DNA of 64,000 nt from Ilex aquifolium (taxonomy: Eukaryota > Streptophyta > Magnoliopsida > Aquifoliales > Aquifoliaceae), in assembly GCA_951799425.1 (NCBI GenBank), contig OX637399.1:14252501-14316500 (forward strand), in the 5' to 3' direction. This document shows positions 21,721 through 59,252 of this stretch, piece by piece. Position 1 is the first letter of the stretch. Every line of letters begins with the position of its first letter. The translations under genes were made by a program, and so were the position numbers. The notes beneath the pieces were generated by a model, which worked only from the letters and a program-made list of their open reading frames with translations, made no database searches and was not told the origin of the DNA.

Positions 21721-21728
21721 AGCATTTT

Positions 21729-25587: not shown

Positions 25588-25644
25588 ACACACACACATA
25601 CATGCAGTCTCATGCACATGCTACAGTCATGTAATAGTAAATGA

Positions 25645-26297: not shown

Positions 26298-26302
26298 ATA
26301 AC

Positions 26303-32486: not shown

Positions 32487-32499
32487 GGCTCTGATACCA
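32487..32499 (-). other. Primer binding site, initiator tRNA-Met (Tekay)
   Basis: On the minus strand TGGTATCAGAGCC lies three bases after the 5' LTR end (GTCACA, 32503) and matches the initiator tRNA-Met complement without mismatch. Confidence 0.9.
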
Positions 32500-32502
32500 A
32501 GC

Positions 32503-34915: not shown

Positions 34916-35426
34916 CGTACCCCGAACTCCAGAGGCAGAACTGTACCGGTACTGTGTATCGGTACTGTTTCTGCTGCAGACCAGTTTTCGTAGAATCCTC
35001 ATAACTTTTGATCCAACTGTCCGATTGAGCTGAAATTTTGACAAAATACAGAAGACATCCAGATCTAAAACTGTCATGTTTTGCACTTTTTTCAGATTCG
35101 AAGCGGATCATGGTCACAAAGGAGTAAAACTGAGGTACTACTACAAAATGGTGTGGGTGCTGATGCCTATGTTACCAAACACCAATACCTCCTTGATTTC
35201 TTTTACTTTTAAGCCTACAAATCCTCATGTAATGGTTCCATCTCTTCACCACACATCCACACATAGTTGCAAGGTTCTAAAATCGATCATTTATGCTATA
35301 ATTACCTGCAACATCGAAAATTCAACATTATTGACAACTTTGGCTAACTCTAAGTACTTAAATCCAAATGTTGAGTTAAAATGCATGTAATGAGGCCTTC
35401 AAATATGCAATATTATGTGCTCATCA
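34916..35426 (-). repeat. Family X LTR, 5' portion (minus strand)
   Basis: The minus-strand LTR start TGATGAGCACATAATATTGC is at 35426. The segment matches 6241-6740 of the plus-strand X solo LTR and includes decayed palindromes (34940-34966). Together with 21926-23217 it makes one X LTR of about 1.8 kb, split by the Tekay element. Confidence 0.8.
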
Positions 35427-39900: not shown

Positions 39901-40186
39901 AGCGTGCGTTGGCCACTTCTCTTCTAAGAAGACTTCGGGAAAGATTTTACGGTCAGGTTTTTGTTGGCCTTCTTTGATAAAAGATTGTATCTGTTTCTGT
40001 AAAGAAAGTGATACGTGGCAGAGATTGGGTAGTGTGACCCATAGGAACATGATGCCCTTAACCCCTATATTGGTAATTGAGATATTCGACTGTTGGGGCA
40101 TCGACTTCATGGGTCCCTTTCCCGTGTCATTTGGCTACCTATACATTCTGCTGGCAGTGGACTATGTGTCCAAGTGGGTAGAGACT
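36961..40186 (+). pseudogene. Broken pol of element A, part 1
   Basis: After a linker with a 21-A run (37090-37110), 37171-38478 encodes the protease ([19 protein letters not shown]) and the start of RT. A frameshift near 38450 leads to 38465-39088, RT with VFMDD and [11 protein letters not shown] stop is at 39086-39088, and frameshifts lie near 39195 and 39700. RNase H (39228-39788) has all three catalytic Asp changed to Asn (MCNACDYAV, VYTNHSALKY, VMANHLSRL) but keeps the Glu. In the integrase N-terminus (39692-40189) a His is Tyr (FCYSKAC) and the Cys pair is lost, while WGIDFMGPF remains. Y2 inserted right after VDYVSKWVE. Confidence 0.85.
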
Positions 40187-40499
40187 TGATTAGCACTCAA
40201 AAGTAGCATATTGTTACACTCTTTTTGGACTAATTATACTTTGATGGAGTTTAAATGATGATATTTTAGGTTCTAAAGTGAAGGAAAGTCCAAAGGCATC
40301 AAAGAAGTACATCTGAGGGACAAATGCCGAATTAACGCAAGACCAAGGGAGCAATGTCAGGAGAATGCAAAGAATGAAGGACAAAGTGTAATAAAAGCAG
40401 GACAAAGTGTAATAAAAGCATTTAAAAAATCAGCATTCAGCAACACCACCGTTCATTCTCCACTTGCCCACTTGCCCACTTGCCCAGCCTTCCTACGCC

Positions 40500-40508
40500 T
40501 ATAAATAG
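40500..40508 (+). promoter_or_regulatory. TATA box of Y2 5' LTR
   Basis: TATAAATAG, 313 bp into the LTR, within CGCCTATAAATAGGCTGC. Transcription would be expected to start about 30 bp downstream. The same box is at 53206-53214 in the 3' LTR. Confidence 0.7.
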
Positions 40509-40696
40509 GCTGCTCCTTCTGCATTTCAAGGAGAGATCTGAGGGTGGAATTGGTGGAAAAACCAAGAGAGGAACTAAGAGTTAGGAGAGATTTTAGAAGA
40601 GTTTTTAGAGAGCAAATTTTCTTTCATCTTTTGTAGCTTCCATTTCAATTCATGTATTGAAGATTTTATGCTTATGTTCTTATGGTAAGAGTTCTT

Positions 40697-40970
40697 TCTT
40701 CTAATTGTCATTTCTTTATAGCTTTTATATTTACTTGCTTGTATAAATATAATGGAAGGCTGAGCCTCCTCTTCTAATTGTCATTTCTTTATAGCTTTTA
40801 ATATTTACTTGCTTGTATAAATATAATGGAAGGCTGAGCCTCCTCTTCTAATTGTCATTTCTTTATAGCTTTTATTATTTTCTTGCTTGTATAAATATAA
40901 TGGAAGGCTGAGCCTCCTCTTCTAATTGTCATTTCTTTATAGCTTTTATTATTTTCTTTTATGTATTTTT
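40697..40970 (+). repeat. 74-bp tandem repeat in Y2 LTR
   Basis: The word CTAATTGTCATTTCTTTATAG recurs at 40701, 40774, 40848 and 40922, a 73-74-bp period. Three units also hold GTATAAATATAATGG (TATA-like) and GGAAGGCTGAGCCTCCTC, a short inverted repeat. The identical array is in the 3' LTR (about 53403-53676), so it predates this insertion. Confidence 0.85.
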
Positions 40971-41951
40971 ATTTCTTGGTTGTGAATTAAACACCAAGTA
41001 GTTATTGTTTTCTTTTATGTATTTTTATCTCTTGGTTGTGAATTAAACACCAAGTATTTATTGCTTTCTTTTAATTTAAGTATTGTTTTCTTTTACTTCC
41101 ATTGTTGGAGCTTCCTTCTTCCCCTTAGAGGAGTGAAACTCTTCCACTTTTCTAGAGCTTTACCAAAGCCGTGAAGGGTGGAACGTGATTCACTTGTTCT
41201 TTGTCGAAGAACGACTCCTTGTTTAGATATTTTACTTTAGAGTATTTTACTTTGTAACACCTTTTGGGGATGAGTACTATTCATCATTCTAGCTTTACCA
41301 TAGTTATGAAGGGTGAGTAGTCCTCATTCACTCTTTGGGAAGGGATGATAGATATGTAAAAGATTAATCCGGACATTATGTTTGTGTATCACCTTTATGC
41401 TTAAATGTTCTATACTCCACTTGATTTTTGGGTGATTGAATGCACCTAGCAAAGTAAAGGTACTTTGTATAATCAACGGATCTTTCTATGATAAATGGAT
41501 GACTCCTACATGGAAAGATCCATTGATTCAAGGCAAGTACCCTAACTAACTCTTCATGACAAAATTTCAATGTCCACCATTATTGCACTTCATTCCTATC
41601 TTCCGATTAATTTGCCGTTGACACGGGAGTTAATTGAGTTATAAAGCATAAACATAATGCACCGGATAATCAACTACATATTCTGATTCCCGAACCAAAG
41701 AGTGTTTGTTACATTTAATCATCTTATATTTTGTCTAGAAAAATACCCATTGGAAAGAATTTTACATTCTATCCAAAACTTCCCACAACTTCAAAATCAT
41801 AATATTTCCAGTTACAAGTCTTTCTCACTATTTACTTCAAAGAACACCAACCATAGTTCCCTGAGGATTCGACTCTGGACTCAAACCAGATTATTACTAC
41901 AACTTGACCGCCTGCACTTGGGTGTACACATTTCGGATCAAGTCAAGTTTT

Positions 41952-41969
41952 TGGCGCCGTTGCCGGGGA
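41952..41969 (+). other. Primer binding site, tRNA-Asp (Y2)
   Basis: TGGCGCCGTTGCCGGGGA matches the complement of the plant tRNA-Asp 3' end at all 18 positions, six bases after the LTR. Confidence 0.95.
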
Positions 41970-42067
41970 ATCATAAAAGGTGCTCTTTTTAGAAAAAAGG
42001 TGAAAAAAAAAAAAAAAAACCTCTCTTTTTGTTTATATTTTTGCCTTATTGTGAATAATTTTGTTTT

Positions 42068-45000
42068 ATGACTGACACCAATCGCCTCTTTCAAAATTTG
42101 CCGGCTGAATCTTCTGGGTCTGTAAATCAACTTGAACCACCTTCACCCAAATCAGAAGCCGATTCTTGTAACTTCAATATGGCAAATATTGACAGGCAGG
42201 GTGAAGATCATGTGAGAGAGGGGGAAGTACCCAACATTCGAACATTGCGGGATTACTTACATCCCACAAGGAATAGTGTCCCCTCTTGTTTTGTTTTTCC
42301 GGAGAATGCACCCCACTTCACTGTGAAGCCGGGGACAGTGCATTTATTGCCCGTGTTTCAGGGATTGGATACAGAAAATCCGTATCTGCATATCAAAGAC
42401 TTCGAAGAAGTGTGTGGAACATTTCAAGACAATTCTGAATTGACAAAAATGAAATTATTTTCTTTCTCTTTGAGGGATAAAGCCAAACAATGGTTACATT
42501 CTTTAAAATCTCTTTCAATCCCTAATTGGCAGGCTCTACAGAATGAATTTTTCAGAAAATTCTTTCCTCTGCACCGCACTAATGCACTCAAAAGACAAAT
42601 CATGAATTTTTCGATCAAAGAAGGGGAAACTTTTTATCAAAGCTGGGAGAGATTCAAAGATCTTCTCCAATCTTGTCCACACCATGCTTTTGAAGATTGG
42701 ACTTTGGTAGGATTTTTCTATGACTCCTTGCCCACTAGGTTACGACAGTTTGTCGAAATGATGGCTCAAGGAGAGTTCATGGGAAAAAGTCCGGAGGAGG
42801 CATTCAATTTTTTTGATACCATATCTGACAGTTCTCAAATGTGGGACTCAGCCTCTCCTACCACTGTAGAAGCCAAACCACCTACTTTCCAAGGGGGTAA
42901 GTATGTCTTGAGAGAAGATGATGATCTTAGAGCAAAAATGTCCACTTTGTCTCGAAAGCTTGAAGCTTTAGAGATGAAAAAGATCCATCAAGTTGATGTT
43001 GTCCCTCCCACAGAACAAGTATGTGGGATTTGTGCGCTAACAGGGCATCCTACTGGGGAATGCCCGACCATTCCGGCATTCAAAGAAGTTTTGTTGGAAC
43101 AAACAAATGCCATTTCCAATTTCAACAAGCCTTACTCCAACCCATACTCTGAAACATACAATCCAGGGTGGCGGAACCACCCAAATTTCAGTTGGAGAAA
43201 CACACAACCAACCCCCATGAATCAGCAACAAAGTCCACAACAACCACCTCAAGGACCTCCACAATATCCTCATCAACAAGGGCCACCACAACCACCTCAA
43301 GGACCTCCACAATATCCTCCATATCAACCACCACACAAAAGGAACCTTGAAGATACATTGAATCAATTCATGCAAACCCAAATGAGCTATAACAATAGTT
43401 CTACTCAGGCTTTTATTGATTTCAAGGCCCAGACCACACAATCTTTTGAGGATCTCAAAGGCCACATTCAAAAGCTGACCCAGTCCATGAGCACACATGA
43501 GAAGGGAAAATTTCCTGCCCAACCAAAGCCTCCACAAGGCCAATTTCAGGTGGGAAATCCATCAACTATGGAAACTCCACAAGACCAAGCCAAAACTGTC
43601 ACCACATTGAGAAGTGGCAAAAAGATTGACAAGTCCATCAGAAACATGCTAATTCCAGACCCAAAACCAGACTCAATTCCAGCCAACCCATTAAGTGAGC
43701 CAGAACTTGAAAAAAAAAATGACTGTGATCCCATGATTGAACAAGAACCAGAGCCATCAAGGGAAGAAGAACCATCGTGTTCTATTCCTGCTCCTTTCCC
43801 TCATAGACTCAAGAGCATACAGAAAGCAAACAATCAGTCTGAAATTTACGAGCTTTTCAAGCAAGTAAAAATCAACATCCCACTTCTGGATGCAATCCAA
43901 CAGGTTCCAGCTTATGCCAAGTTTCTAAAAGACTTGTGCACAGTCAAAAGAAGCCAAAATGTTCAAAAAAGAGCCTTCTTCACAGAACAAGCCAGTGCCC
44001 TACTTCAACAAAAAATTCCTTCAAAGTGCGAAGATCCAGGATGCCCCACTGTGTCATGTGTCATTGGAAATTTCAAAATTGAGCAAGCATTGTTAGACCT
44101 TGGAGCTAGTGTCAACTTGCTTCCTTTCTCTGTCTACCAGCAGTTGGGTTTAGGTGAACTGAAACCCACTTGCACCACACTCCAATTGGCAGATAGATCT
44201 GTAAAAATTCCTAGGGGTATTGTTGAAGATGTACTTGTCCAAGTGGATAATTTTGTCTTCCCTGTAGACTTCATTGTTCTAGATACTCATCCAGAAGTTC
44301 ATTCAGAAACTCCAATTCCTGTCATTCTTGGTCGACCTTTTCTAGCAACCTCCAATGCACTAATCAATTGCAGGAATGGTATTATGAAATTGACTTTTGG
44401 GGATATGACTCTCGAAATGAACGTCTTTGACATTGCAAAACACCCAAGAGAGTACGAGGAGGTAGGAGAAATAAATTCCATTGAGTCATTAATACAAGCA
44501 CATCTGAATGACTCATTCTGTGAGGATCTTAGTGAATCAACTTTGTCAAAATCTGACTCATCTGACTCTCTGGAACAAAACTCCATTGAGTGTCCTACCT
44601 TCAATGTGGGGACATGGGCTCCTAAATTTGAAGAAATTTCATCAAGTGGTACAAAACCACTATCTTCAAGTGACAGGCCACCAAAGCCTGAACTGAAACC
44701 GCTCCCTTCTGATCTCAAGTATGCATTTTTAGGTGAGGATAAATCTTACCCAGTGGTAATTTCTTCAAAAATCACAGACTTGCAAGAAGCTCAATTAATT
44801 GAAGTTCTTAAAAGTCATAAAAGCATCATTGGGTGGACCATCGCTGATTTGAAAGGTATAAGCCCGTTAATATGTAATCATGCCATATACCTTGAAGAGG
44901 ACTCAAAACCCTCTCGTCAAATGCAGCGACGATTGAATCCTCACATGAAAGAGGTTGTGAGACTGGAAGTGCTCAAACTCCTGGATGCAGGGATAATTTT

Positions 45001-47668
45001 TCCTATCTCCGATAGCAAATGGGTTAGTCCAACCCAAGTTGTACCAAAGAAATCTGGAGTCACAGTAGTCAAAAATGATGCAAATGAACTTGTGCCAACA
45101 CGAGTCGTCACAGGATGGCGAATGTGCATTGACTATCGAAAACTCAATCTGGTGACTAGAAAAGACCATTTTCCTCTTCCCTTCCTTGACCAAGTCCTCG
45201 AGAGAATAGCAGGCCATGAATTTTACTGTTTCCTAGATGGGTATTCCGGATACAATCAAATTGAGATAGCTCTGAATGACCAAGAAAAGACCACATTCAC
45301 ATGTCCATTTGGCACCTTTGCATTCAAAAGGATGCCATTCGGACTTTGTAACGCTCCTGCAACATTTCAAAGATGTATGCTGAGCTTGTTCAGTGACATG
45401 GTCGAAAATTTTTTGGAAATCTTCATGGATGATTTCTCGGTATATGGTGACTCATTTGATTTGTGTCTAGCTAACCTAGAAAAAGTTTTGATAAGATGCA
45501 AAGAGGCAAATCTGGTGCTTAACTGGGAGAAATGTCATTTCATGGTGAATCAAGGCATTGTCTTGGGTCACATTGTGTCGTCTGAAGGCATGAAAGTTGA
45601 TAAAGCAAAAATTGATTTGATAAGGAATCTTCCTGCTCCTAGGGTTGTGAAGGATGTTCGATCATTCTTAGGTCATGCAGGATTCTACAGAAGGTTCATA
45701 AAAGACTTCAGCACCATAGCAAAACCTATGTGTCATCTTTTGTGTCAGGATGTCATTTTCGACTGGAATGAAGCGTGCCAAAAATCCTTTGACAAACTCA
45801 AAGGCATGTTAATTTCTGCCCCAATAATGCAACCTCCTGACTGGACTCTACCCTTTGAATTGATGTGTGATGCTAGTGACTATGCTGTAGGTGCTGTTTT
45901 GGGACAAAGAAAAGATAAGAAGCCACATGTGATTTACTATGCAAGTAAAACTTTAAATGATGCCCAAATGAATTACTCAACAACTGAAAAGGAATTACTT
46001 GCTGTAGTATTTGCATTGGAAAAATTTCGATCTTATCTTGTTGGTTCTTCTGTTACTGTATTTACTGACCATGCAGCACTGAAATTTTTGCTTACAAAAA
46101 AAGATGCCAAACCAAGGCTCTTGAGATGGATCCTCTTGCTCCAAGAATTTGATTTAGTCATTAAGGACAAAAAGGGTGTGGAAAATGTGGTGGCAGATCA
46201 TCTGTCAAGATTAACTTATGAATTTCATGAGGATGAACTGCCAATCAATGAAAAATTCCCCGATGAACAACTATTCAGGATTGATGAAACCCCATGGTAC
46301 GCTGATATTGCTAATTTCCTTGCTACCGGAACACTTCCTCCATTTTTCACTCCCATGGACAAAAAGAAGTTTCTGAGGGAGGTCCGCAATTTCTTTTGGG
46401 AAGATCCCTACGTATTCAAGTACTGTAAGGATCAGATCATAAGACGTTGCATCCCCGCTCAGGAAAGTAGACAGGTAATAACATTTTGTCATTCAGAAGC
46501 ATGTGGTGGTCATTTTTCATCTCGAAAAACCGCTGCAAAAATCTTGCAGTGTGGATTTTACTGGCCCACACTTTTCAAAGATGTCCATGCTTTTTGCGTA
46601 ACTTGCGATAGATGTCAAAGGTTGGGAAACATTTCAAAAAGAAACATGATGCCCTTAAACCCAATTTTGGTGATCGAAATTTTTGACTGTTGGGGTATCG
46701 ATTTTATGGGACCATTTCCCCCCTCCTTTGGCTATCTATACATTTTAGTAGCCGTAGACTATGTATCCAAATGGGTTGAAGCAATTCCATGCCGAAATAA
46801 TGATCATCAAACGGTGATCAAGTTTTTAAAAGAAAATATTTTATCTCGGTTTGGAATTCCAAAATCCATTATAAGTGATGGGGGTTCTCATTTTTGCAAT
46901 CGTCCCTTCTGGAATTTAATGAAAAAATACTTGATTTTTCACAAAATTGCAACCCCTTATCATCCACAGACCAGTGGACAAGCTGAGTTAGCTAATCGGG
47001 AGATCAAATTAATTTTGGAAAAAACGGTGAACCCAGATCGCAAAGATTGGTCATTAAGACTAACTGATGCGCTCTGGGCATACCGAACTGCTTTTAAAAC
47101 AATTTTGGGCATGTCTCCCTATCGATTAGTCTATGGAAAGCCATGTCACTTGCCTGTGGAATTGGAACATAGGGCATACTGGGCTATTAAAGCAATGAAT
47201 TTTGACTTAGACAAGGCTGGACTGTCACGGAAGCTTCAGATTAATGAATTGGAGGAATTGAGAAATGAAGCATATGAAAATGCTAAGATTGCAAAAACCA
47301 GGATGAAAATTTTTCATGACAAGAACATAGTGCGAAAATCTTTTGAACCTGATCAAAAGGTTCTACTTTTCAATTCGAGACTTCGCCTATTTCCTGGTAA
47401 GTTGAAATCAAGATGGACTGGACCATACATTGTTAAAAAGGTATTTGAACATGGGGCAGTGGAAGTGGAGAACCCATCAAACGGTAACATTTTTACCGTC
47501 AATGGTCAGAGATTAAAACCCTTTGTGGAGAATTTTGTCCAAAATGTGGAGACCATTTTTTTAATGGATCCAGAAAGTATCTCCGGATATCACTCCGGAG
47601 ATTACGCTTGCCGACACAAAAAAGGGTCGGGTCAGTCAGACACCCGACACGATGGACTGCCTTTATAA
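42068..47668 (+). CDS. Intact Athila-like gag-pol polyprotein
   Basis: This 1866-aa frame carries all functions needed to make particles and cDNA. Order: capsid region (about 55-290), CCHC knuckle C319/C322/H327/C332, Pro/Gln-rich linker (380-425), protease with DLGAS at 677-681, RT with FMDD at 1119-1122, and RNase H with D1268, E1309, D1334 and D1377. The integrase has H1475/H1482 and C1513/C1516, then D1545, D1604 and E1640 (D-x35-E), and a C-terminal [14 protein letters not shown] region (1778-1791). No chromodomain is seen. There is no stop or frameshift between gag and pol. The ATG at 42068 is the first in frame after the PBS and a leader with a run of A. The last 40 or so residues are unlike those of element A pol, and the end abuts two RNA hairpins. 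Confidence 0.95.
47579..47648 (+). other. Two hairpins at the end of pol
   Basis: ATCTCCGGA/TCCGGAGAT (9-bp arms, 6-base loop, 47579-47602) and GTCGGGT/ACCCGAC (7-bp arms, 9-base loop, 47626-47648) lie inside the last codons of pol. They are GC-rich in an AT-rich context and stand just before the cassette. They could affect translation termination, RNA processing or expression of the downstream genes; this is inference. Confidence 0.5.
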
Positions 47669-47821
47669 GGCTCCCATCGCTTTTTTTTTTTTCTTTTTTT
47701 TTCTTTTCCTCACCACACCTTTACTCTTTTCTTTTCTTTTTCTTCTTCTGCTTCTTCTCTTTTCTTCTTCTTCTCCACTGCATCTGGTCTTCTGTACCAC
47801 GATCCAACCCATAACAGTACC
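47669..47821 (+). other. Pyrimidine-rich leader of cassette copy 1
   Basis: A run of T and C/T-rich sequence (47681-47770) follows GCCTTTATAAGGC (47659-47671), itself an inverted repeat. The corresponding leader of copy 2 starts GCCTTTATTAGGC (49740) and is also C/T-rich. Long pyrimidine leaders just before an ORF may mark a promoter or a splice acceptor region. Confidence 0.45.
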
Positions 47822-47968
47822 ATGTCTGCATTTTTCGATGACCCTATCCTCCTTCTCATGATCTACATTTGTTTGTATTATTTACTTATGGCTGTTCTTC
47901 TTCGGGCCGCACTGATGATCAAGGGTTTTTGTCCCAATGAAAACCCAGACCACCCCAAAGATGCTTAA
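47822..47968 (+). CDS. Small single-pass membrane peptide, copy 1 (48 aa)
   Basis: The ORF encodes an acidic start (MSAFFDDP), a hydrophobic stretch of about 25 residues (PILLLMIYICLYYLLMAVLL) and a short polar tail (NENPDHPKDA). A second copy at 49903-50034 keeps DDP, the hydrophobic core with CLY, and NPDxP although the DNA around has diverged, which argues that the peptide is made and selected. It lies 153 bp after pol and 322 bp before the zinc-finger ORF. Its function is unknown. Small membrane proteins of plant RNA viruses are one possible analogy, but the size alone proves nothing. Confidence 0.6.
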   Translation: MSAFFDDPILLLMIYICLYYLLMAVLLRAALMIKGFCPNENPDHPKDA

Positions 47969-48060
47969 TCTCTGTTTTTTTTTTGGTATAGGTCATCGGC
48001 GATTGAACAGATCTCCACAGTTAACTGCGTATTCAAGCTCTACAAACCGAAAAACTCGAA

Positions 48061-48099
48061 ACATTGGGGACAATGTTCAGTCTAGGTTGGGGGGTGAGA
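48061..48099 (+). other. Internal polypurine-tract-like element
   Basis: CATTGGGGACAATGTT followed by AGGTTGGGGGGTGAG closely resembles the PPT before the 3' LTR (AGGTTGGGGGGTG, 52880-52892). A counterpart stands in element A at 55661-55700 (TTTGGGGGGTGAGG). It may act as a second plus-strand primer. Confidence 0.5.
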
Positions 48100-48290
48100 T
48101 CTACAGTTTACAATAGTTGATCTGCAGTTTACAGTAGTTGATCTGCGCAGGTTGAACCCGTAAAATTTTCTGTAAATTTTTTTTGTTTTTATTGTTGTAT
48201 CTGTTCATATTATGTACCTTGTATTAATGATAATATCTGTGGGTCAGTTTTGATCGTCTTTGTGACTGGAAGACGTAAAAGAACCAGATA

Positions 48291-48722
48291 ATGGGTCATA
48301 GAGTAGCAATCATGGATGTAAATCTTTTTTGGTTTAGTCTAGGAGTCCTACGTACTTTTCCATCTGATGTACATACCATGATCATGAGAAAAGCAAGATT
48401 AGTAAGGAAGGCTGAAATCAAAGAAAAACAAGCGAAACCCCTCTGTGGCCGAAGCAGTTATTCTAAACGTCGTCGTGCTACACGACTTGGTGCCTGTAAA
48501 CAGTGTGGCAGATACTTTCATGAGAAAAGATACAACAAATGTTCTGAACCAATTTCCGGTCGCGCAACCGATCGATTAAACTGGATAAAACATGGGCTGA
48601 GTAAGGATTACCCTGATACGCCATGCTATTCCGGTACTGTGCTTAACCGATTTGTGAGAGAGGAAGTTGGGAGAGTTACTAGTTGTCCATTTTACACAGA
48701 TACGGAGGGGGAATCGGATTGA
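48291..48722 (+). CDS. Zinc-finger nucleic-acid-binding-like protein, copy 1
   Basis: 143 aa. The N-terminal part (10-40) is a hydrophobic then basic helix-like segment (LFWFSLGVLRTFPSDVH, MRKAR). Residues 53-66 are basic (GRSSYSKRRRATRL), directly followed by C69-x2-C72-x4-H77-x6-C84. A conserved SGRATDRLNWIKHGLSKDYP segment (89-108) comes next, and the tail is acidic. The order of basic patch, Cys/His cluster and following IK-x-G-LS segment recalls the cysteine-rich proteins of carlaviruses and vitiviruses (Pfam Carla_C4), some of which suppress RNA silencing; this is a recalled resemblance, not a search result. The spacing differs from the gag knuckle (x4). Alternative: a diverged retroelement nucleocapsid-like protein. 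ATG 48291 is chosen because copy 2 has Met at the same places (residues 1 and 8). Confidence 0.75.
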   Translation: MGHRVAIMDVNLFWFSLGVLRTFPSDVHTMIMRKARLVRKAEIKEKQAKPLCGRSSYSKRRRATRLGACKQCGRYFHEKRYNKCSEPISGRATDRLNWIKHGLSKDYPDTPCYSGTVLNRFVREEVGRVTSCPFYTDTEGESD

Positions 48723-49143
48723 CCTCTGTGGAAAAGTGTACTGAGGTTGGGAATGAAAGCTGAAGGTCCGAGTCTGTAAATTTTATTTTATTTTATTTTA
48801 TTTTATTTTTTTTTTATGTTCTGTACAAACTCTTTTGGCTTAAGAATGTTTATTTTGATTCCTTTTAGGATGCATAAAAAAAAAAAAAAAAAAAAAAGGG
48901 GTTGGAATATATAATAAGTAAAATAGAGAGGTTGAAATATATAATAAGTAAAATAAAGGGGTTAGTAGTGTAAAATCTGAAATTTTATATTCATTCGGTT
49001 TAGTGAATTGAGAATAATTACAACTTTATTGAAAAAAATTTAATAACACCCCTTTCTTTTGAATAATAAACACTTTATATTTTTTTTCTTTCTTGTGTTA
49101 CACTTTGTACCCCTACAAATTTTGGGATTTTTGGTGAATTAAG
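48723..49143 (+). other. Spacer with poly(A) and short repeats
   Basis: The 3' UTR of copy 1 (to about 48870, similar to 51000-51090 after copy 2) ends in a run of 22 A (48876-48897). Two copies of a GAATATATAATAAGTAAAATA-like unit follow (48904-48965), with a third, diverged copy at 49279-49305, so these units flank the chromovirus fragment. No gene is seen. Confidence 0.5.
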
Positions 49144-49440
49144 GAATTTCGGAGACGAAATTCTTTTGAGGAGGGTAGATTGTGAGATCCCAAATTTTTG
49201 AAATTTTTGACAATAGTTTAAGTATATATATTATGAGTTTTGATGGGAAAGTATAAGGAATAGTTAAGTTTTGTGGTTGATATATATAATAAGTGAAATA
49301 TAGGGGAGCAAAGTATAACTATTTTAACTTTTATGATAATTGAGTCTTCAGCCACGTGAAGACTGGCAAAAAAAAAAAAAAAGTCAAAAGTAGGCAGCCG
49401 TTCATTCATTACATTTTAGAAAATGTGGGTGTGTGCAATT
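49144..49440 (+). mobile_element. Captured fragment of a chromovirus 3' end
   Basis: GAATTTCGGAGACGAAATTC (49144-49163) then a GAGGAGGGTAGA polypurine tract and TGTGAGATCCC (49181) form the 3' terminal signature of a chromovirus, as at 25587-25541 on the other strand. The LTR that would follow fades out within about 250 bp. It lies between the two cassette copies, inside Y2. The right limit is approximate. Confidence 0.6.
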
Positions 49441-49565
49441 AATGGTATAAAATTTAGTGTGTGTCTGGTTCTTTGTTGGAACCGTGAGTGAAGTACAGTT
49501 GCTTTTATTTATTAAATGTTATTTTTAATGCATGTCACTTTATTTTGTTGTATAATTTTGTTGTT

Positions 49566-49650
49566 CCTAGTTTCAGATATCGGTGCATGGGTCAAAGCTC
49601 AAGTGCGAGGTGTTCTCTTACCCTACTCATTTTTATTACTATGCACCATT
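49566..49650 (+). other. Conserved post-pol segment
   Basis: CCTAGTTTCAG then ATATCGGTGCATGGGTCAAAG and following bases match element A 55551-55625. In Y2 the frame reads DIGAWVKAQVRGVLLPYSF; in A it reads DIGVFVKAQV-stop. The bases just before (TAGTTTCAG in Y2, TAGTTACAG in A) look like a 3' splice site. It may be an exon start or a structured RNA. Confidence 0.5.
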
Positions 49651-49698
49651 ATTGCGCCTGCTGCCATTATTGCGCCTGCCGACACTGCCGAAAGTAAA

Positions 49699-49733
<35 letters not shown>

Positions 49734-49902
49734 AGGAATGCCTTTATTAGGCCTTCCACCTTTTTCTTTTTCTTCCACCATTACCGGTGTTGGTTTTCCC
49801 CCTTTTTTCTTTCCCTTATCTTCTTCTCTTTCTTTTTCTTCTCTTCTTCTTCGTCGTCGTTCTTTCTGTTCTCTGTAAAAACAACTCACCCCCTGTAAAT
49901 CC

Positions 49903-50034
49903 ATGACCATATACGCCGACGATCCAGTCTTTTGTTTAATAATTTGTCTTATATGTTTGTATGTGTACCTGGGTGCTCTTTGTGTTCTCACACTTAGGAT
50001 GAGGAGTTTCCAGAGAAACCCAGATATTCCTTGA
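49903..50034 (+). CDS. Small single-pass membrane peptide, copy 2 (43 aa)
   Basis: The ORF encodes MTIYADDP, a hydrophobic stretch (VFCLIICLICLYVYLGALCV) and a basic/polar tail (LRMRSFQRNPDIP). It aligns with copy 1 (47822-47968) at DDP, CLY and NPDxP and has the same place upstream of a zinc-finger ORF. Five Cys lie in or near the membrane stretch. Function unknown; single-pass insertion is inferred from hydrophobicity. Confidence 0.55.
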   Translation: MTIYADDPVFCLIICLICLYVYLGALCVLTLRMRSFQRNPDIP

Positions 50035-50572
50035 GTTGAGTAATTGTTGTATTTTGTTTGTAGGTTTCGGCAGATGAACAGATCTGTACCTTACAACCTT
50101 ATCTCCACTAGCCCACTAGTGCTAGTGTTGTAAGTATTGCTTGTTTGTAATTTCATTTATATATATATTTGAAATTTGATATCTACAGCTTGTGATTCTC
50201 ATGGCTATTTGTCTTTATAAGATTCCTTGTGAATTTGCTATGCCCTCCAATGACTATGTTGTAATTGCTGTTACAGTAAGATCTGATAATTTGCCAAATA
50301 ATCCTCCTCAATCCTATGTATTCTGGGTTTATTCCTTCTTCGTTAATTTGTTTGTTTAATCCTAAATCTTCTTCCTTCCGCTTGTATTTTGGTATATTTT
50401 CTCTAGTTTCGTATTTGTAATTTTAGTTTTAGATCTGAAAAAAAAAAAAAAAAAAAAAATTATTTTTTTTGGATCGCGTTTTTTTTTTAGTATTTGTACC
50501 TGTATTTCATGATCACATCGGATGCAGCTTCAACTGTCTTTGTGACTGGCAGACGTTAAAGAACCAGATAGA
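50035..50572 (+). other. Spacer between peptide and zinc-finger ORF, copy 2
   Basis: No ORF of note. It starts with TTTGTTTGTAGGTTTCGGCAG, paralleled in copy 1 by TTTTTGGTATAGGTCATCGG (47980), a possible 3' splice site in both. A run of 22 A lies at 50438-50459. The last 40 bp (CTGTCTTTGTGACTGGCAGACG, 50531-50552) match the bases before copy 1 (48256-48277). Confidence 0.45.
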
Positions 50573-50998
50573 ATGTCTTTAGTCTTAGCAAGCATGGATC
50601 CTAAACTTTTTTGGTTTAGTCTAGGAGTTCTACGCATTTTCCCATCTGATGTGCATGCTGTGATAATGAGAAAAGCAAGGGATGTGAGAAAAATTGAGAT
50701 CCGAGAGAAACAACAACAACCATTGTGTGGCAGAAGCAATTTTGCTAAACATCGTCGTTCCAAACGACTGGGTGCTTGTTACTATTGTGGCAGGATATTT
50801 CATATGAAAAAACATAATCAGTGTTCTGAACCAATTTCGGGTCGTGCAACCGATCGATTAAACTGGATAGTGTATGGGCTGAGTAAGGATTATCCTAACA
50901 CGCCATCTTATGCCAGTCCAGGACTTACAAGTTATGTGCGACAAGAAGTTGGAAGGGTCACTGATAATGACATAGATCCAAGCGATGACTCGGATTAG
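50573..50998 (+). CDS. Zinc-finger nucleic-acid-binding-like protein, copy 2
   Basis: 141 aa. About 90 of the first 130 residues are identical to copy 1 by eye. C69, C72, H77 and C84 are at the same residue numbers, as are FPSDVH, the basic patch (HRRSKR here) and EPISGRATDRLNWI. The acidic C-terminus (DIDPSDDSD) differs in sequence but not in character. Preservation of frame and key residues across two diverged tandem copies indicates selection on the protein. Likely an RNA- or DNA-binding accessory protein of the element; its role in packaging, silencing defence or regulation is unknown. Confidence 0.75.
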   Translation: MSLVLASMDPKLFWFSLGVLRIFPSDVHAVIMRKARDVRKIEIREKQQQPLCGRSNFAKHRRSKRLGACYYCGRIFHMKKHNQCSEPISGRATDRLNWIVYGLSKDYPNTPSYASPGLTSYVRQEVGRVTDNDIDPSDDSD

Positions 50999-51110
50999 AT
51001 TTTGACTATAAAAACAAAGCTGTGGAAAAATGTGTTTTGGAATGAAGGTTAAGGGTCTGAACTCTTTTGTAAAATATTTTTGTACAAAGTCTGGTTGTTG
51101 AAATAAAAAT

Positions 51111-51371
51111 ATGGGCCGAGTAAGGAACGTCCCGAACTACCAACTAACAGTGTAGGTAGGGATTTGATCCTGAGACGCCATAAATTTCCAAGTTCAATTT
51201 GTGCATTTTATCTTCTTTCAATTCTCATAGATAAATGAGTATGTGGGCGGAGTAAGGAATGTCCTAAAATGCCAACCTGTAGTGTGGGTAGGGACTTATC
51301 CTGAGACGCCATAGTTTTTCAAGTTTAATTGGTGCATCTAGTCTTCTTTCAATTTTCATAGATAAATGAGT
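51111..51371 (+). repeat. Two 131-bp repeats derived from zinc-finger ORF
   Basis: ATGGGCCGAGTAAGGAACGTCC (51111) and its repeat at about 51241 resemble the ORF segment ATGGGCTGAGTAAGGATTATCC (50874-50895, encoding YGLSKDYP). Both repeats end GATAAATGAGTATG. They look like decayed duplications of the C-terminal coding part. A related single unit is in the Y element (14230-14345, minus strand). Confidence 0.5.
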
Positions 51372-51404
51372 ATGTTTATAATTTTGAATTTTATTTTTCT
51401 TGTT

Positions 51405-51408
<4 letters not shown>

Positions 51409-51441
<33 letters not shown>

Positions 51442-52856
51442 ACTTCCTTGAAAAATGGTATTTTCTCTATGCTTAAATGTCAAATGTATATTGCTATTTG
51501 TTATTCTTAAGGTAAAGAATGACCAGACTCAAAAATAGAATCGGTATATAACCGACATTCCATGAAAAACCTGACATTACCAGTGGAGATGATAAAGAAT
51601 ACCATGGTAAGTTTTGAGCCTTATCATACTTTTGAGAGATAATTAACATTTATTCAAGTAAGGTCTTTCATTCTCTATTTTTGAATAATCTCATTAAATT
51701 TGCTTTGATTGACGCAACTAAGGTAATCTGTTGACATATCCCCAAGAAATCTGTTCATACGACACATACATGTTCACATACTTGAGAAAGGATTTTAGGC
51801 CATCTTTTATTTGATATTGAGCCTTAGCCATTTTTTCTGCAAAATTATTTCCCTAGTCAGCCATGTTTGAGCCCTCAATGTATGATTTCTTCTTTGATAA
51901 ACCCAAATATTTACCAAGCCACAAGAAAACATACTGGACACACCATTGCTATCTAATTTTCTTGCACACTCTTATTAATTAATATGACACAGAAATGCAA
52001 AGAAATGGGAAAACTGTGGAGATTACTTTTCGATGATAAGGAGAATCAATGAAAAAAAAAGAAAAAAAAAGAAAAAAAAAAAAGAAATCATTTCTGGGCA
52101 AAATGTCGAAAAGCTAGAAAGAAGTGTGCTACATTACAGAATGAAAAGATAGCTTTTGAAAACCTCTGACGTCATTTCATTAGCCACTGACCTCTGGCCA
52201 CGCTACAACCTATGAAAAGCCCTAATTGATCTCAAGTCTGTTACATGTGTGTGTTGTTAATCAAAATTGGGGTATGGTAAATAGTATTTCTTTAAATTGC
52301 ATCAATATTCTTTCATGAGATTATGCCAAACATGATTAGTTTGTTTCCGTAAACTTCACTTCCTTCCTAATTGTGCATGTGATTTTTCGATTGGCCACCT
52401 TCTGATCACATGCCCCGTGAGAGACAAGTCACTATAATCGGAGTGAATTTTTGCTGAGAGCATTCTACGAGAGGTTTGTGAAATCGAAGCTATCCATGGA
52501 AGGTAGTAAAGTGGAGTGTTTGTTATATAACAATTCTTGTTGCTAGAATGATCATTCTTACTACATAGGGAATTTCAAATACCAATATAACAAGTGTTTA
52601 TTTTTGCGTATATTACGTACCAATGACAGAGAAGTGTTCTATGTTCTAAAAAAAAAAAAAAAAAAAAGTTTCAACTATCATGGTGCTAATGCATATACAC
52701 ATTTTTTTTTCACAATGGAGTTTGTAGGTAGCTTCACTGAAAACCTTCACGAGACAAAACTCGTCCACTAGGAATCACCTAGGGGTTTAACGGCTTATTG
52801 CATATGCTAAATGCAATCGTGTTATCTACGAAAGTGATTTTGTTATGCTGTTATTT
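51409..52856 (+). other. Conserved 3' noncoding block of Y2
   Basis: A run of 31 A (51409-51439) is followed by AT-rich sequence without genes. From about 51595 to 52560 it aligns with Y (10741-12110, minus) and A (56040-57200). It includes A-rich runs (52051-52084, 52649-52667). In Y2 and Y the block directly precedes the PPT and LTR, whereas in A the env-like ORF lies between. Confidence 0.55.
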
Positions 52857-52892
52857 ATTGCTAGAGACCAGCAATGTTTAGGTTGGGGGGTG
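52857..52892 (+). other. Stem-loop and polypurine tract of Y2
   Basis: ATTGCTAGAGACCAGCAAT (52857-52875) can form a stem with 6-bp arms. It is followed by AGGTTGGGGGGTG (52880-52892) immediately before the 3' LTR, the expected plus-strand primer. Confidence 0.8.
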
Positions 52893-54651
52893 TGATTAGC
52901 ACTCAAAAGTAGCATATTGTTACACTCTTTTTGGACTAATTATACTTTGATGGAGTTTAAATGATGATATTTTAGGTTCTAAAGTGAAGGAAAGTCCAAA
53001 GGCATCAAAGAAGTACATCTGAGGGACAAATGCCGAATTAACGCAAGACCAAGGGAGCAATGTCAGGAGAATGCAAAGAATGAAGGACAAAGTGTAATAA
53101 AAGCAGGACAAAGTGTAATAAAAGCATTTGAAAAATCAGCATTCAGCAACACCACCGTTCATTCTCCACTTGCCCACTTGCCCACTTGCCCAGCCTTCCT
53201 ACGCCTATAAATAGGCTGCTCCTTCTGCATTTCAAGGAGAGATCTGAGGGTGGAATTGGTGGAAAAACCAAGAGAGGAACTAAGAGTTAGGAGAGATTTT
53301 AGAAGAGTTTTTAGAGAGCAAATTTTCTTTCATCTTTTGTAGCTTCCATTTCAATTCATGTATTGAAGATTTTATGCTTATGTTCTTATGGTAAGAGTTC
53401 TTTCTTCTAATTGTCATTTCTTTATAGCTTTTATATTTACTTGCTTGTATAAATATAATGGAAGGCTGAGCCTCCTCTTCTAATTGTCATTTCTTTATAG
53501 CTTTTAATATTTACTTGCTTGTATAAATATAATGGAAGGCTGAGCCTCCTCTTCTAATTGTCATTTCTTTATAGCTTTTATTATTTTCTTGCTTGTATAA
53601 ATATAATGGAAGGCTGAGCCTCCTCTTCTAATTGTCATTTCTTTATAGCTTTTATTATTTTCTTTTATGTATTTTTATTTCTTGGTTGTGAATTAAACAC
53701 CAAGTAGTTATTGTTTTCTTTTATGTATTTTTATCTCTTGGTTGTGAATTAAACACCAAGTATTTATTGCTTTCTTTTAATTTAAGTATTGTTTTCTTTT
53801 ACTTCCATTGTTGGAGCTTCCTTCTTCCCCTTAGAGGAGTGAAACTCTTCCACTTTTCTAGAGCTTTACCAAAGCCGTGAAGGGTGGAACGTGATTCACT
53901 TGTTCTTTGTCGAAGAACGACTCCTTGTTTAGATATTTTACTTTAGAGTATTTTACTTTGTAACACCTTTTGGGGATGAGTACTATTCATCATTCTAGCT
54001 TTACCATAGTTATGAAGGGTGAGTAGTCCTCATTCACTCTTTGGGAAGGGATGATAGATATGTAAAAGATTAATCCGGACATTATGTTTGTGTATCACCT
54101 TTATGCTTAAATGTTCTATACTCCACTTGATTTTTGGGTGATTGAATGCACCTAGCAAAGTAAAGGTACTTTGTATAATCAACGGATCTTTCTATGATAA
54201 ATGGATGACTCCTACATGGAAAGATCCATTGATTCAAGGCAAGTACCCTAACTAACTCTTCATGACAAAATTTCAATGTCCACCATTATTGCACTTCATT
54301 CCTATCTTCCGATTAATTTGCCGTTGACACGGGAGTTAATTGAGTTATAAAGCATAAACATAATGCACCGGATAATCAACTACATATTCTGATTCCCGAA
54401 CCAAAGAGTGTTTGTTACATTTAATCATCTTATATTTTGTCTAGAAAAATACCCATTGGAAAGAATTTTACATTCTATCCAAAACTTCCCACAACTTCAA
54501 AATCATAATATTTCCAGTTACAAGTCTTTCTCACTATTTACTTCAAAGAACACCAACCATAGTTCCCTGAGGATTCGACTCTGGACTCAAACCAGATTAT
54601 TACTACAACTTGACCGCCTGCACTTGGGTGTACACATTTCGGATCAAGTCA
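52893..54651 (+). repeat. 3' LTR of Y2
   Basis: 1759 bp, the same length as the 5' LTR, one base different by eye (G53130). TATA box 53206-53214 and the 74-bp repeat array (about 53403-53676) are preserved. The duplication AGACT follows at 54652-54656. Confidence 0.95.
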
Positions 54652-54656
54652 AGACT

Positions 54657-55475
54657 ATCCCAACAAAGACCAATGACCACCGTGTCTTGATCAAGTTTCA
54701 CAAGGAGAACAATTTTTTCGAGGTTTGGGATGCCTCGTGCAATAATAAGCAATGGTGGGTCGCATTTCTGTAATAGGCCATTTGCATCTTTAATTCATAA
54801 GTATGGCGTAACATACAAGGTGTCCACCGCTTATCACCCACAAACCAATGGTCAAGCCGAGTTGGCCAATAGGGAAATCAAGAACATCCTAGAGAAAACG
54901 GTGAATCTCAATAGGAAAGATTGGTCATTTAGGTTGACCAATGCCCTTTGGGCATACCACACTGCTTATAAGACAATTCTAGGCATGTCACCCTACAAGC
55001 TAGTCTATGGCAAGGCTTGCCATTTGCCGGTTGAGATGGAACACAAAGCCTATTGGGCCATCAAGACCTTGAATTTCAACATGAGAATGGCAATAGAGAA
55101 TAGGAAGCTTGAAATGAATGAATTGGAGGAGATTCGAAGAGATGCATATGAGAGCTCTAAAATTTCAATAGAGAGGGCTAAGGTTTTTTATGACAAATCC
55201 ATTGTAAGGAAATCATTTGAGCCCGTACAAAAAGTGCTCTTCTACAATTCTCGTCTCTCAATTTTTCAAAGGAACTCCGATCCCGTTGGGATGTCCCCTA
55301 TCTTGTCAAGGTGGACTACCCCAATGGAGCTGTGGAAGTCACAAACCTCAAAGATGGCAAGACATTCAAGGTCAATGGCCAAAGACTTAAGCCATTCATT
55401 GAGGGGTTTGAAGGTCAAGGGGTGGAGGAAGAATTAGTGGATCTGGTTTACCCGGACTTGTTGGAGGAATAACTG
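54657..55475 (+). pseudogene. Broken pol of element A, part 2 (integrase)
   Basis: It continues the integrase cut by Y2: IPTKTNDHRV, then a frameshift near 54700, then [13 protein letters not shown] (the catalytic Asp is Asn), [17 protein letters not shown] with the catalytic Glu, and [21 protein letters not shown]. The frame breaks again near 55275 in the C-terminal part, and the remaining [13 protein letters not shown] tail is readable in another frame to about 55470. Confidence 0.8.
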
Positions 55476-57550
55476 TTGATATGATCTTTAGTGTACATTC
55501 ATTTTTACTTACTTTATCTGTTATGTTTAGTTATCTTTGTGTATAGTGTTGTCTCCTTAGTTACAGATATTGGTGTTTTTGTCAAAGCTCAAGTGTGAGG
55601 TGCACTCTAACCCTACTCATTTTTTTTACAGTCCGTCATTGCATATCATATCTTTTTTGTTGCATTGAGGACAAAGCATGAATCAATTTGGGGGGTGAGG
55701 TGCACCATTTATATGATACACCAATGGTTGTGAAAATTTTTGTTGATAATACCAATTTTTGTGGTGAAAAATTTACCTTTCACATATCATACAGATTTTT
55801 GTTTACAATAGTTACAAATTATGTGAAAAATTTGAAAATTTTTATGAAAATATTTGAAAGTTGATCTGTATTCCCTTATTTAGAGTGTTATGGGTTTATT
55901 GATATTTGTGTTGAACCTTGAATACATGAGCACATTATAGAAGTTCATCCTATGCTTGAGTATCACATATGTGTTTGCTTTTAAACTCAACCTTAAGTGC
56001 ACTTTGAATTGTAATGTTGACAATTTACGGATTGAGTTCACATTGAGTGCTTGACATGAATAGTGGAGATAAGTAAGGACCCATGAGAGCTTTAGTGCCC
56101 ATCCTGGTTGGAGGGAACTTACATTTACTCAAGGAACAATTTTTCAAATTCCAAATGTGTTCAATAATCTCATTATGCTTGTTTTGGTTAGGTGCATTAT
56201 GGTAGTTGATTGACTTTGTCTTGATATGTACAATGCTCTCCCATGCCTATCTAGAAATGATCTTGGGCCATCCTTGATTTGCTTTGAGCCTTTGCCTTTT
56301 TTTTTTTTCTTGTGAAAATTTTATCCCTAGTGCCATGATTGAGCCTTAATTGTAAATTCGTTTCCATGCCACACATTTGACCAAGCCAGTTTAAAATGAT
56401 AAAATCTACCTCACCTTTGGTTGTTCCTAGTGCTGAGTATGAGTGAGCATAAAAGAGAAGGAAGTATGACAGAAACTCAACAAAAGGGATGAATGAAGTT
56501 GAATTTAAAGAGTTGAACGGAAAAGAATGAAAATCCAAGAAAAGGATAAAAAGGGGGTGAAGGAAGAAAGAATGATCAAAAATAAAAGAAAAATGTTAAG
56601 GAAAAGAAAGAAAAGAAACCAAGAGTGTGGTGACGGTGTTAGACTGAAAATCCCATGAAAAGGGAGATGTTTTTGAAATAAAAGTCATTTCACTCGGAAC
56701 AACCCTCTTTGTTATCCTATATCCTTCATTTCATTTGCCTCAATATCACCCCAAGGCCCCATTATAACCCTTGAAAGTCCTAAATGATCTAGAGAAAGCA
56801 TGGGGATAACATACTTTAAAAAGAAGAAGAAAAGAAGTTGGTTTTACTATCTAATGCCCTAGCATTCCCTTCATGAGATTATGCCAAGGTTGTTTCATTT
56901 TCATGCATGAACTTCATTTTTGGATTATATGTGAGCATACTTCATTTTGTGCACAAGATTCTATCTCACATATACACATGGAGAGCATGCCAAGATAACT
57001 ATAGTGTGATTCATTGTTGAGAGACACCTTTGGTGAGGTTGCATCGAAGCTTAATTTGGATAGCCAAGTAAATGCGAACTCTGTTGTGTAAATGCTTCAA
57101 TTACATGTCTATTTCACACACATACACGAGTTTGAAAATGATTGTGTATGTGCATACTCTTGAATAATATTTAAAGCCATGATAAAGCTCATGTGTGCTT
57201 AGTTCGGGCATTTGAGCAATGTATTTCGTAGCCCTATGCTTAAAGGATGGGGGAATATTGCTCAACTTTTGATATTTGTAGGAATTAGGAATACCCTTGT
57301 TATTTGAATCTATTCATTTTGGTAGTTTAAATTAGAAATCCATGTCTTGTACTTTGAAAACATCAAAATTTTAAATCATATTGCAATTTCATAAATGACT
57401 TTGGGCATGATCAATCAATTGTGATTCATATGTGTGGTTCAAGTTTTTGGTAGGTTAGATGTCATAGATAGGGTGTTAAAATGTTTTGGAGTTGAGGAAA
57501 GTTGGTTTTGATGTGAGTTTTCGAGCAAAAGAATGGTTTTGCAGCAATGG
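55476..57550 (+). other. Noncoding block of element A after pol
   Basis: It holds the conserved post-pol segment (55551-55625), an internal PPT-like element (55661-55700), and from about 56040 to 57200 the block shared with Y2 and Y. No zinc-finger ORF or membrane peptide is recognisable here. A purine-rich AAAGGATGGGGGAATA (57243-57258) marks its end. Confidence 0.55.
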
Positions 57551-57670
57551 CAAAACCTTCCGGAATATTTTGATCGACCTTTTGGAAGGTCTTGCCTAAT
57601 GGATAGTAGTGCCTCAACAGTAAGCAAAACATTCGGGAAGGTTTTGATCGACCTTCCGGAAGGTCTTGCT
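57551..57670 (+). promoter_or_regulatory. CCTTCCGGAAGG palindromes upstream of env-like ORF (A)
   Basis: Four intact or decayed copies are present, the best being GACCTTCCGGAAGGTC (57649-57664). The same palindrome occurs four times in U3 of the A 3' LTR (59827-59966). They lie about 290-400 bp before the env-like ATG. A weak TATA-like TTAAAAATG follows near 57679. Confidence 0.55.
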
Positions 57671-57953
57671 TAGAAGCTTAAAAATGAGGGTTTTAAGTTA
57701 GAATTTGTTGAGAAACCCTTCACATTTCCCCCAAATCTCAAGCTCCCAAGCTCCCTCCTCTCCTTCTACTCTCTTCCAAGCTTCGAAACACTTCACCAAA
57801 GCCCTAGATTCTCACTTTTCTCTTGATTAGGGTTGAGTATTGAGTTATTTTTGCTGAAATTTTTGGGTGTTCTCCACAAACCCTAGGTCTTCACATTTCC
57901 CCCAATTTCTCAAGTCCATCTTGATCTTCTTCAAATCCCTAGATTCCCTTGCT

Positions 57954-59252
57954 ATGGCTCGTTTAGGAAGTGCTTCTCTCGATGCTTTCGAGCCCATTGA
58001 GTGGCTCTTTATGTGGATTTTGACACTTCTTGGTGTAGTGGCACTACTAGTCCTAATGGCCCGTACCAAGAGAATGGGCCCTAAGACCCCACCACCTGCG
58101 GGAACTAGCTCCCGCAAGAGGGCCATAGAATGCTCTAGTAGCCAAGACCGGGAAGAGAGAAGGACAAAAGCAAAACACGACGCACGTAGGTAAAGGATAG
58201 AGGAAAAAAATGTCACGTGCGAGAGGTATGTGGACAAGATATCTCTTGGGCCAAATGATGAGGTCGTGAGAGTGATTGAAGGACATGGATTAGGTGTTTG
58301 GTTTGAGGAGATGAAGGGCTATAATTTGGGGATGTGTAGAGAGTTTTACAAGAAGTTGGCGGTGTTTAGCGAGGAGGGAAGTAGGCTAAAGATCAACGTG
58401 CGGGGGAAGACCTTCGAGGTGACCCCCGATTTGATTGCCACTGTGATGGGATATGAGAGGCCTCGCCCTACTACCCCGGTCTACCCATTTAATGTTGAAG
58501 GGGTTAGGACTCTCGCCGACTATGTGAGGCTCACCTACGAGGACCCAACCACTTTCAAAGGAACAACTTTGGCCGGGTGCCTCCAGTACTCTATCGAGAT
58601 GATGAACAAGGTGCTTCACTACAATCTAATGCCCCAGGGTTCGGAGAAGAGCCCGAATATTGAGAAGCTTGCCCTTCTCCTTGCATTCATGACGGGGAAA
58701 GCGATTAATGTGGCGTTGCTGATATGGGAGGAGATGAGGTAGTTCGCCAAGGTTGCAAGGCCGAAGGCGAATCTCCCCTTCGGGAGTCTTGTTACCCGTA
58801 TGTGCGACCACTGCAAGGTGAAGTCCTACGCACATGATACACTACTGCCCCCAGAGACTGGTGCCATCGAAAAGTCTGGCAGTAGCAAGAGGGCAACCAG
58901 GACAAGGGGAGAGAGGCCTAGAGCGTCAGGACCGGAGCCACCTACAACAGGGCCATCCTCCTCGACACCTCCCACTTCTGCCACACCTCACACCATGTCG
59001 CAGTGTATGGATGCCCTGGAGTCAACCATGTACGGGTTGTTGATGATGGTGACGCAGCTATTTCAGCATATTTTCTCGGGCGAGCCCATCCCCGGTGGAC
59101 CTCCACAGCCTCCAGCTGGACCATCGATCGTAGCTCCTATACCTTCTACGACTGTTGAGGTGGGAGAGTCCGACGACGACGATGAGGAAGAGGGGACTGA
59201 GTCTAAGGGTGAGACTGAGGAGGAGGATGCTTTTGATGAGGGCGATGATTAG
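57954..59252 (+). pseudogene. Env-like ORF3 of element A with two stops
   Basis: One frame of 433 codons is broken by TAA at 58191-58193 and TAG at 58740-58742. From ATG 57954 it has a hydrophobic membrane-type stretch (WLFMWILTLLGVVALLVLMA, residues 23-42), then RTKRMGPKTPPPAG, where ATG 58056 (MARTKR) is an alternative start. The central domain (58230-58742: GHGLGVWFEEMKGYN, CREFYKKLAVF, FEVTPDLIATVMGYERP) is the Transposase_32-type plant family seen in the third ORF of Athila elements. The C-terminus is Pro-rich and then strongly acidic (EVGESDDDDEEEGTE). Homologous to the Y pseudogene at 12665-13657. Role in the element is unknown. Confidence 0.75.

Follow-up and report, generated by a model that had tools for sequence, protein, structure and literature searches.

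The holly Ilex aquifolium carries, in a 64,000-nucleotide stretch of contig OX637399.1 (assembly GCA_951799425.1, positions 14,252,501 to 14,316,500; the whole stretch is called the window here), a long terminal repeat (LTR) retrotransposon that encodes two proteins resembling the nucleic-acid-binding proteins (NABPs) of betaflexiviruses. The element spans 40187-54651, and its LTRs begin with TG and finish with CA. NABP-A and NABP-B lie between gag-pol and the 3' LTR, each preceded by a conserved block and, further upstream, by a small open reading frame (ORF). The features, in window coordinates, are as follows.

40182-40186, no strand: target site duplication AGACT, left copy; the same 5 bp recur at 54652-54656
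40187-41945, plus: 5' LTR, 1759 bp, with a single mismatch against 52893-54651
41952-41969, plus: primer binding site
42068-47668, plus: gag-pol, 1866 codons, comprising gag (CCHC knuckle at residue 319), protease, reverse transcriptase, RNase H and integrase
47822-47968, plus: tmA, 48-codon ORF with one hydrophobic segment
48083-48096, plus: second, internal occurrence of the polypurine tract, identical in all 14 nt
48256-48290, plus: 35-nt conserved block immediately before NABP-A
48291-48722, plus: NABP-A, 143 codons, ATG start, almost certainly a homologue of betaflexivirus nucleic-acid-binding proteins
48871-49528, no strand: non-coding stretch of ~660 bp, missing in 4 of 15 fetched copies (L018, L019, L021 and L023)
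49903-50034, plus: tmB, 43-codon ORF homologous to tmA
50538-50572, plus: stretch preceding NABP-B that includes the conserved block (core 50539-50570)
50573-50998, plus: NABP-B, 141 codons, ATG start
52879-52892, plus: polypurine tract, 14 nt
52893-54651, plus: 3' LTR, 1759 bp
54652-54656, no strand: target site duplication AGACT, right copy

The two frames of 143 and 141 codons lie downstream of an intact gag-pol exactly where a preliminary description, made from the letters, had placed them. The 90 residues in 130 that it gave as common to both are borne out by alignment (69.2% identity), and the C69, C72, H77 and C84 that it named are in register in both frames, with the spacing CX2CX4HX6C. 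Its basic patch is also found at a fixed place: residues 50-84 hold 11 K/R versus 1 D/E in NABP-A and 9 versus 0 in NABP-B. This stretch adjoins the Cys/His cluster in both proteins (isoelectric points, pI, of 9.8 and 9.5, respectively), and the zinc and basic residues are conserved among relatives. ORF length by itself is weak evidence, because the longest ATG-started ORF reaches at least 141 codons in 4 of 200 random, composition-matched stretches of 5.2 kb. A chance ORF is ruled out by the profile matches and by the open frames in other copies.

The duplicated module and its carrier

The small ORFs upstream of the two NABPs are themselves related (alignment score 51, against a maximum of 19 in 1000 shuffles). 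Each has one 19-residue hydrophobic stretch (2.75 in tmA and 2.82 in tmB) in only 48 and 43 codons, and no Pfam family scores over its cut-off on them. Since homologous tmA and tmB precede each NABP, the duplicated unit is a two-gene module. The 35-nt block before the NABPs is identical between the units at 33 of 35 positions, compared with a mean of 17.3 upstream (311 gap-free windows); it is conserved where the surrounding non-coding DNA is not, and within the window it occurs at these two sites only. It is matched at 31 or more of the 35 positions before 66/66 NABP starts with enough upstream DNA, some of these loci overlapping, so that they do not represent 66 distinct places. Random positions in the same loci give a mean of 16; their highest value, 33, presumably reflects a hit on the block itself. 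An Rfam scan of 47600-52900 gives 0 matches. The duplicated unit is composed of a small membrane-protein ORF, the leader block and an NABP. Two further features lie in this region. The polypurine-tract copy at 48083-48096 may be a second priming site or a scar from the addition of the 3' module, and the stretch 48871-49528 resembles an insertion or deletion marking sublineages.

The carrier is very young and recently active, because its LTRs differ at one position in 1759. At substitution rates between 7e-9 and 1.3e-8 per site per year, the insertion would date back ~20,000-40,000 years. The gag-pol is an uninterrupted frame of 1866 codons, with a gag knuckle of spacing CX2CX4HX4C at residue 319. 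The primer binding site, which we take to be of the tRNA-Asp type, and the 5-bp duplication AGACT are as in the Athila lineage, where the primer is a tRNA other than tRNA-Met. The order of Pfam domains (gag, protease, reverse transcriptase, RNase H, integrase) is likewise that of Athila, and neither a chromodomain nor a second RNase H is among the Pfam matches of the element. By its anatomy, the element fits an Athila-type Ty3/gypsy (OTA) retrotransposon; the lineage as described in PMC6317226 (papers given by PMC number are cited throughout from excerpts) agrees with the domain list and the 5-bp duplication.

Kinship with virus proteins and direction of transfer

Both proteins score over the curated cut-offs of two viral Pfam families, including the Carla_C4 family against which the preliminary description had proposed to hold them. 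For Viral_NABP (PF05515), E is 7.6e-11 for NABP-A and 4.4e-12 for NABP-B (42.8 and 46.9 bits for a cut-off of 23), and for Carla_C4 (PF01623) 7.3e-6 and 7.3e-5. P0002, used as a single query, gave 10 relatives on contigs of 528-2941 bases whose sources are unnamed. A first profile, made of the two window proteins and these 10 relatives and thus containing no virus-named protein, retrieved 27 proteins, including the RNA-binding protein of grapevine virus A (E = 1.5e-7) and a protein of carrot vitivirus 1 (E = 9.2e-3). A second, wider profile that includes these two proteins retrieved 50, adding more vitiviruses, Allamanda chlorotic virus B and peach mosaic virus, with two carlaviruses matched weakly (1.4e-3 and 0.35). 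In the reverse direction, a profile of 13 virus proteins alone was run on 1623 targets, among them 870 shuffled sequences and 724 frames of the window. The two ORFs were found at E = 3e-16 and 6e-16, whereas no shuffled sequence scored better than 0.17 and no further frame of the window better than 0.47.

Several of the closest virus matches, which are trichovirus, prunevirus and vitivirus proteins, carry the name RNA silencing suppressor. The likeness runs past the zinc cluster into an ISG..DRL part and, for peach mosaic virus, also covers the N-terminal part. The virus-like character claimed at the outset therefore holds: the profile searches match virus NABP families and named vitivirus proteins, and not a host or retroelement family. 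A host ribosomal-type zinc protein, suggested by one relative named L37AE/L43A and by eL37 as best match in the PDB (E = 0.15), was rejected as much weaker than the virus match. The collections viral_contigs and genome_contigs, searched for relatives, yielded none. The ORFs sit in an LTR retrotransposon and not in a flexivirus genome, so they are genes of the element that are homologous to the viral one. That they are real homologues of viral NABPs is, in our judgement, close to certain.

Resemblances and differences vary with the virus group. Vitivirus p10 (ORF5 of grapevine virus A, PF05515) has an alignable core, GRS.(F/Y)(A/S)K.RR, followed by the Cys/His cluster and a downstream ISG...DRL; identity to the element NABP is 44% over 63 residues for grapevine virus A and 51% over 53 residues for grapevine virus H. 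The element proteins differ in being ~50 residues longer at the N-terminus, in having CX2C where p10 has CXC, and in being encoded by two-copy genes in a retrotransposon. Trichovirus and prunevirus NABPs (peach mosaic virus, cherry mottle leaf virus, Prunevirus armeniacae) are alike over almost the full length, N-terminal helices included (34% identity over 128 columns for peach mosaic virus), but in the alignment the trichovirus rows lack the histidine column of the element proteins, and their genetic setting differs. In the carlavirus cysteine-rich protein (Carla_C4), as in the element NABP, a basic motif precedes the Cys cluster. The match is far weaker (the 1.4e-3 and 0.35 given above), and the zinc motif reported for the carlavirus PVH, CX2CX9CX4C, is unlike CX2CX4HX6C (excerpt of PMC3689765).

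Of 55 proteins, 39 entered the tree; the other 16 were excluded as fragmentary or frame-shifted. The A lineage (7 rows) has support 97/100, and B-like rows adjoin it but form no supported clade. Support is 87/74 for the group of 15 element-type rows and 94/93 for 13 of these. When rooted on carlaviruses, the trichovirus rows diverge before the fork of vitiviruses and element-type rows, the fork itself being unsettled; thus virus rows surround element rows. The direction of transfer is inferred, and capture from a virus by the element is very probable. The opposite course, in which an old retrotransposon gene was taken up by flexiviruses, draws on the root being a choice and on a lineage of unnamed source (P0017-P0021 and P0030-P0032) beside the element-type rows. 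It is improbable, since the virus family covers many alpha- and betaflexiviruses and since virus rows enclose the element rows under the carlavirus root, even with the vitivirus/element fork unsettled. Taken with P0022 and P0023, this NABP lineage (P0017-P0023 and P0030-P0032) is present on short contigs of unnamed source and is perhaps also genomic, because its relatives P0026, P0027 and P0029 appear frame-shifted. For both P0011 and P0016 the longest contig has 2941 bases, so that a single contig may carry an A gene together with a B gene.

Copies, subfamilies and selection

The assembly comprises 800 Mb in 103 contigs. A search with NABP-A gave 4099 first-look candidates, and in the best-scoring 150, distributed over contigs C1-C20, the frame is stop-free in 150/150 at 99-100% identity. 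A search with P0018 found mainly B copies, stop-free in 149/150 (best 150 of 3400). When the 3' non-coding DNA served as query, with no selection for an ORF, 40 places of 2391 candidates were taken, and at least 32 of these have a listed A frame within 6 kb upstream. Fifteen 3' regions, picked from the 150 A places, were fetched, and all 15 have the order tmA, NABP-A, tmB, NABP-B without stops; the absence of the ORF from related copies, which would speak against the virus-like gene as first described, is thus not observed. Across 16 copies, the window included, no alignment gap occurs in any of the four ORFs (tmA being full-length in 14/16), whereas the three non-coding stretches have gaps in 13/15, 12/15 and 15/15 copies. 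On C12 of the same genome (G000:C12:1122188, 1124325, 1126462 and 1128601), four NABP matches lie on one strand, 2137-2139 bases apart, so a portion of the element is arrayed in tandem there.

Between NABP-A and NABP-B of the window, the synonymous divergence dS is 0.74 and the non-synonymous divergence dN 0.25, a dN/dS of 0.34 (bootstrap 0.19-0.52). These values indicate an old split under purifying selection. Diverged forms, 8 of 30 loci from the P0018 search, make up a second subfamily, in which the arrangement A'-tm'-B' is present in all five loci for which the missing piece was fetched. Because this subfamily also has A' and B', the duplication predates the subfamilies, unless a later exchange explains it. 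Identity between A' and A is 75-77%, at a dS of ~0.5 and a dN/dS of 0.27-0.33 (one pair at 0.27, bootstrap 0.15-0.43), and a more distant B-type frame, L035, has a ratio of 0.43. At locus L046, a tmA-type ORF (94%, ratio 0.26) is combined with A' and tm'. The NABPs have been retained in the copies examined, and A has been under constraint between the subfamilies.

The element is inserted into the integrase-coding part of an older relative (about 35600-40186 and 54657-59252), which has a Transposase_32 ORF at 58230-58742 in its 3' region and no NABP match. A related repeat on the minus strand (9635-16062) has a 3' non-coding region 79% alike over 1550 columns and no significant NABP match, and degenerate NABP pieces sought in the 3' repeats gave a best E of 0.33, which is not significant. 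Also on the minus strand, 28184-32155 holds the gag-pol of another Ty3/gypsy element (1323 codons).

Proposed function and meaning

It is tempting to propose that an Athila-type Ty3/gypsy element acquired an NABP gene, the most likely donor being a vitivirus- or trichovirus-like betaflexivirus, and that this gene, together with the small membrane-protein ORF and the 35-nt leader block, was duplicated long ago, both copies staying open as the element multiplied. The arginine-rich helix and the CCHC cluster would bind RNA, probably small interfering RNA (siRNA) or double-stranded RNA, and this binding would weaken the silencing of the element's own transcripts. The NABPs would be expressed from spliced or internally started RNA. 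For the chain as a whole, from capture through duplication and retention to an anti-silencing role, the chances look even.

RNA binding and silencing suppression are the most likely activities, because the kinship is nearer to vitivirus and trichovirus proteins. In the excerpts cited, p10 of grapevine virus A, which has a basic and a zinc-finger part, suppresses silencing, and cysteine changes in it leave binding unaffected while symptoms are lost (PMC10819895); a listing in PMC3712444 has it act on siRNA. Suppression of local silencing is reported for the cysteine-rich protein of PVH and likewise for PVM (PMC3689765). Silencing is a main brake on retrotransposons, and a suppressor would directly benefit the element. 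Suppression as the main NABP function is about as likely as not. If it is, the anti-silencing proteins of Vandal DNA transposons would be comparable as element-encoded protection from silencing (excerpt of PMC11728184), although Vandal elements belong to another class and the protein family here is viral.

Several observations weigh against this proposal. The copies were drawn from best-scoring lists, so that decayed ones are under-counted. Among near-identical copies, the ratio of non-synonymous to synonymous polymorphism (pN/pS) is 1.48 for NABP-A, calculated from very few changes in the frame that served as search key; the other frames have 0.60 (B), 0.00 (tmA) and 0.67 (tmB). B' and B are 92-95% identical, with dS of 0.01-0.02 and a ratio of 0.97-1.95 on 8-15 changes; judged by these substitutions, NABP-B is under no measurable recent constraint, and with so low a dS the B end seems to have been exchanged between the subfamilies. 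For tm' versus tmB, the ratio is 0.75-1.10, indicating weak or no constraint. A first structure model has a mean predicted local distance difference test score (pLDDT) of 59, and a second, better one has 68. Foldseek found 0 matches in the PDB and, among viral models, 5 of 64 at E <=0.001, with prunevirus, trichovirus and vitivirus proteins on top. With a weak fold model and TM-scores of ~0.3 against the viral models, these matches count only as additional support from sequence plus local structure. Finally, the carlavirus CVB p12 is a transcription factor that does not suppress locally induced silencing (excerpt of PMC3689765).

With CVB p12 as precedent (same excerpt), the NABPs might be nuclear transcription factors or modulators of host genes that do not act on silencing, and the basic patch could be a nuclear signal. 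This is rather unlikely, as the closest full-length and core matches are to trichovirus, prunevirus and vitivirus proteins, several of them named RNA silencing suppressors, and not to CVB. A captured gene could also have spread with a successful element and be functionless now, in keeping with an NABP-B free of measurable recent constraint and with an element of one LTR mismatch that keeps its frames open by youth alone. Against such a hitchhiker stand the A/B ratio dN/dS of 0.34 (dS 0.74), the 0.27-0.33 between A and A' at dS ~0.5, the zinc and basic residues kept in relatives and the confinement of indels to non-coding stretches; it is the least probable of these functional alternatives. An NABP serving replication of the element, as an RNA chaperone or packaging helper in reverse transcription or particle assembly, with the membrane protein for trafficking, has more in its favour and is nonetheless unlikely. 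The pI values of 9.8 and 9.5 of a basic zinc-cluster protein, the similarity of CX2CX4HX6C to a retroviral zinc knuckle and a viral cysteine-rich protein reported to act in particle assembly (excerpt of PMC11213338) agree with it, whereas gag already carries a CCHC knuckle (CX2CX4HX4C, residue 319) and the older related element has a Transposase_32 ORF in its 3' region and no NABP match.

The proposed anti-silencing role extends, more tentatively and at somewhat less than even chance, to a high-copy, recently mobile element that has spread with two diverged suppressors derived from RNA viruses, each of them coupled to a small membrane protein, as a dedicated module for counter-defence and movement. 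Plant LTR retrotransposons, Athila and Bagy-2 among them, likewise have additional (env-like) 3' ORFs in sense orientation between pol and the 3' LTR, and the small membrane ORFs recall the env-like ones; in the excerpts of PMC7264820 and PMC11728184, the described ORFs have transposase-like or membrane domains and no NABP. The statement that no Athila element is known with this gene stands as far as the open-licence literature goes: no earlier description was found there, and full-text searches of it brought up no report of an NABP gene in a retrotransposon, preprints and most subscription papers being outside this scope. No NABP is named in the excerpts of a review of additional ORFs (PMC7264820), a large survey (PMC6317226), DARTS (PMC8775202), a sunflower study (PMC11728184) or a study of endogenous RNA viruses (PMC3136472); the large survey, by its excerpt, counted extra ORFs of at least 250 codons only.

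Most extra ORFs of plant LTR retrotransposons have no assigned origin or function; here, kinship is clear. The gene is common to positive-strand RNA viruses and retrotransposons, and is of a size overlooked by a 250-codon survey cut-off. Its kin form a protein family with several viral members reported as RNA-silencing suppressors. Should the NABPs suppress silencing, a retrotransposon would be employing a counter-defence protein of viral type, and one could then test whether genes of this kind aid bursts of retrotransposons in a genome.

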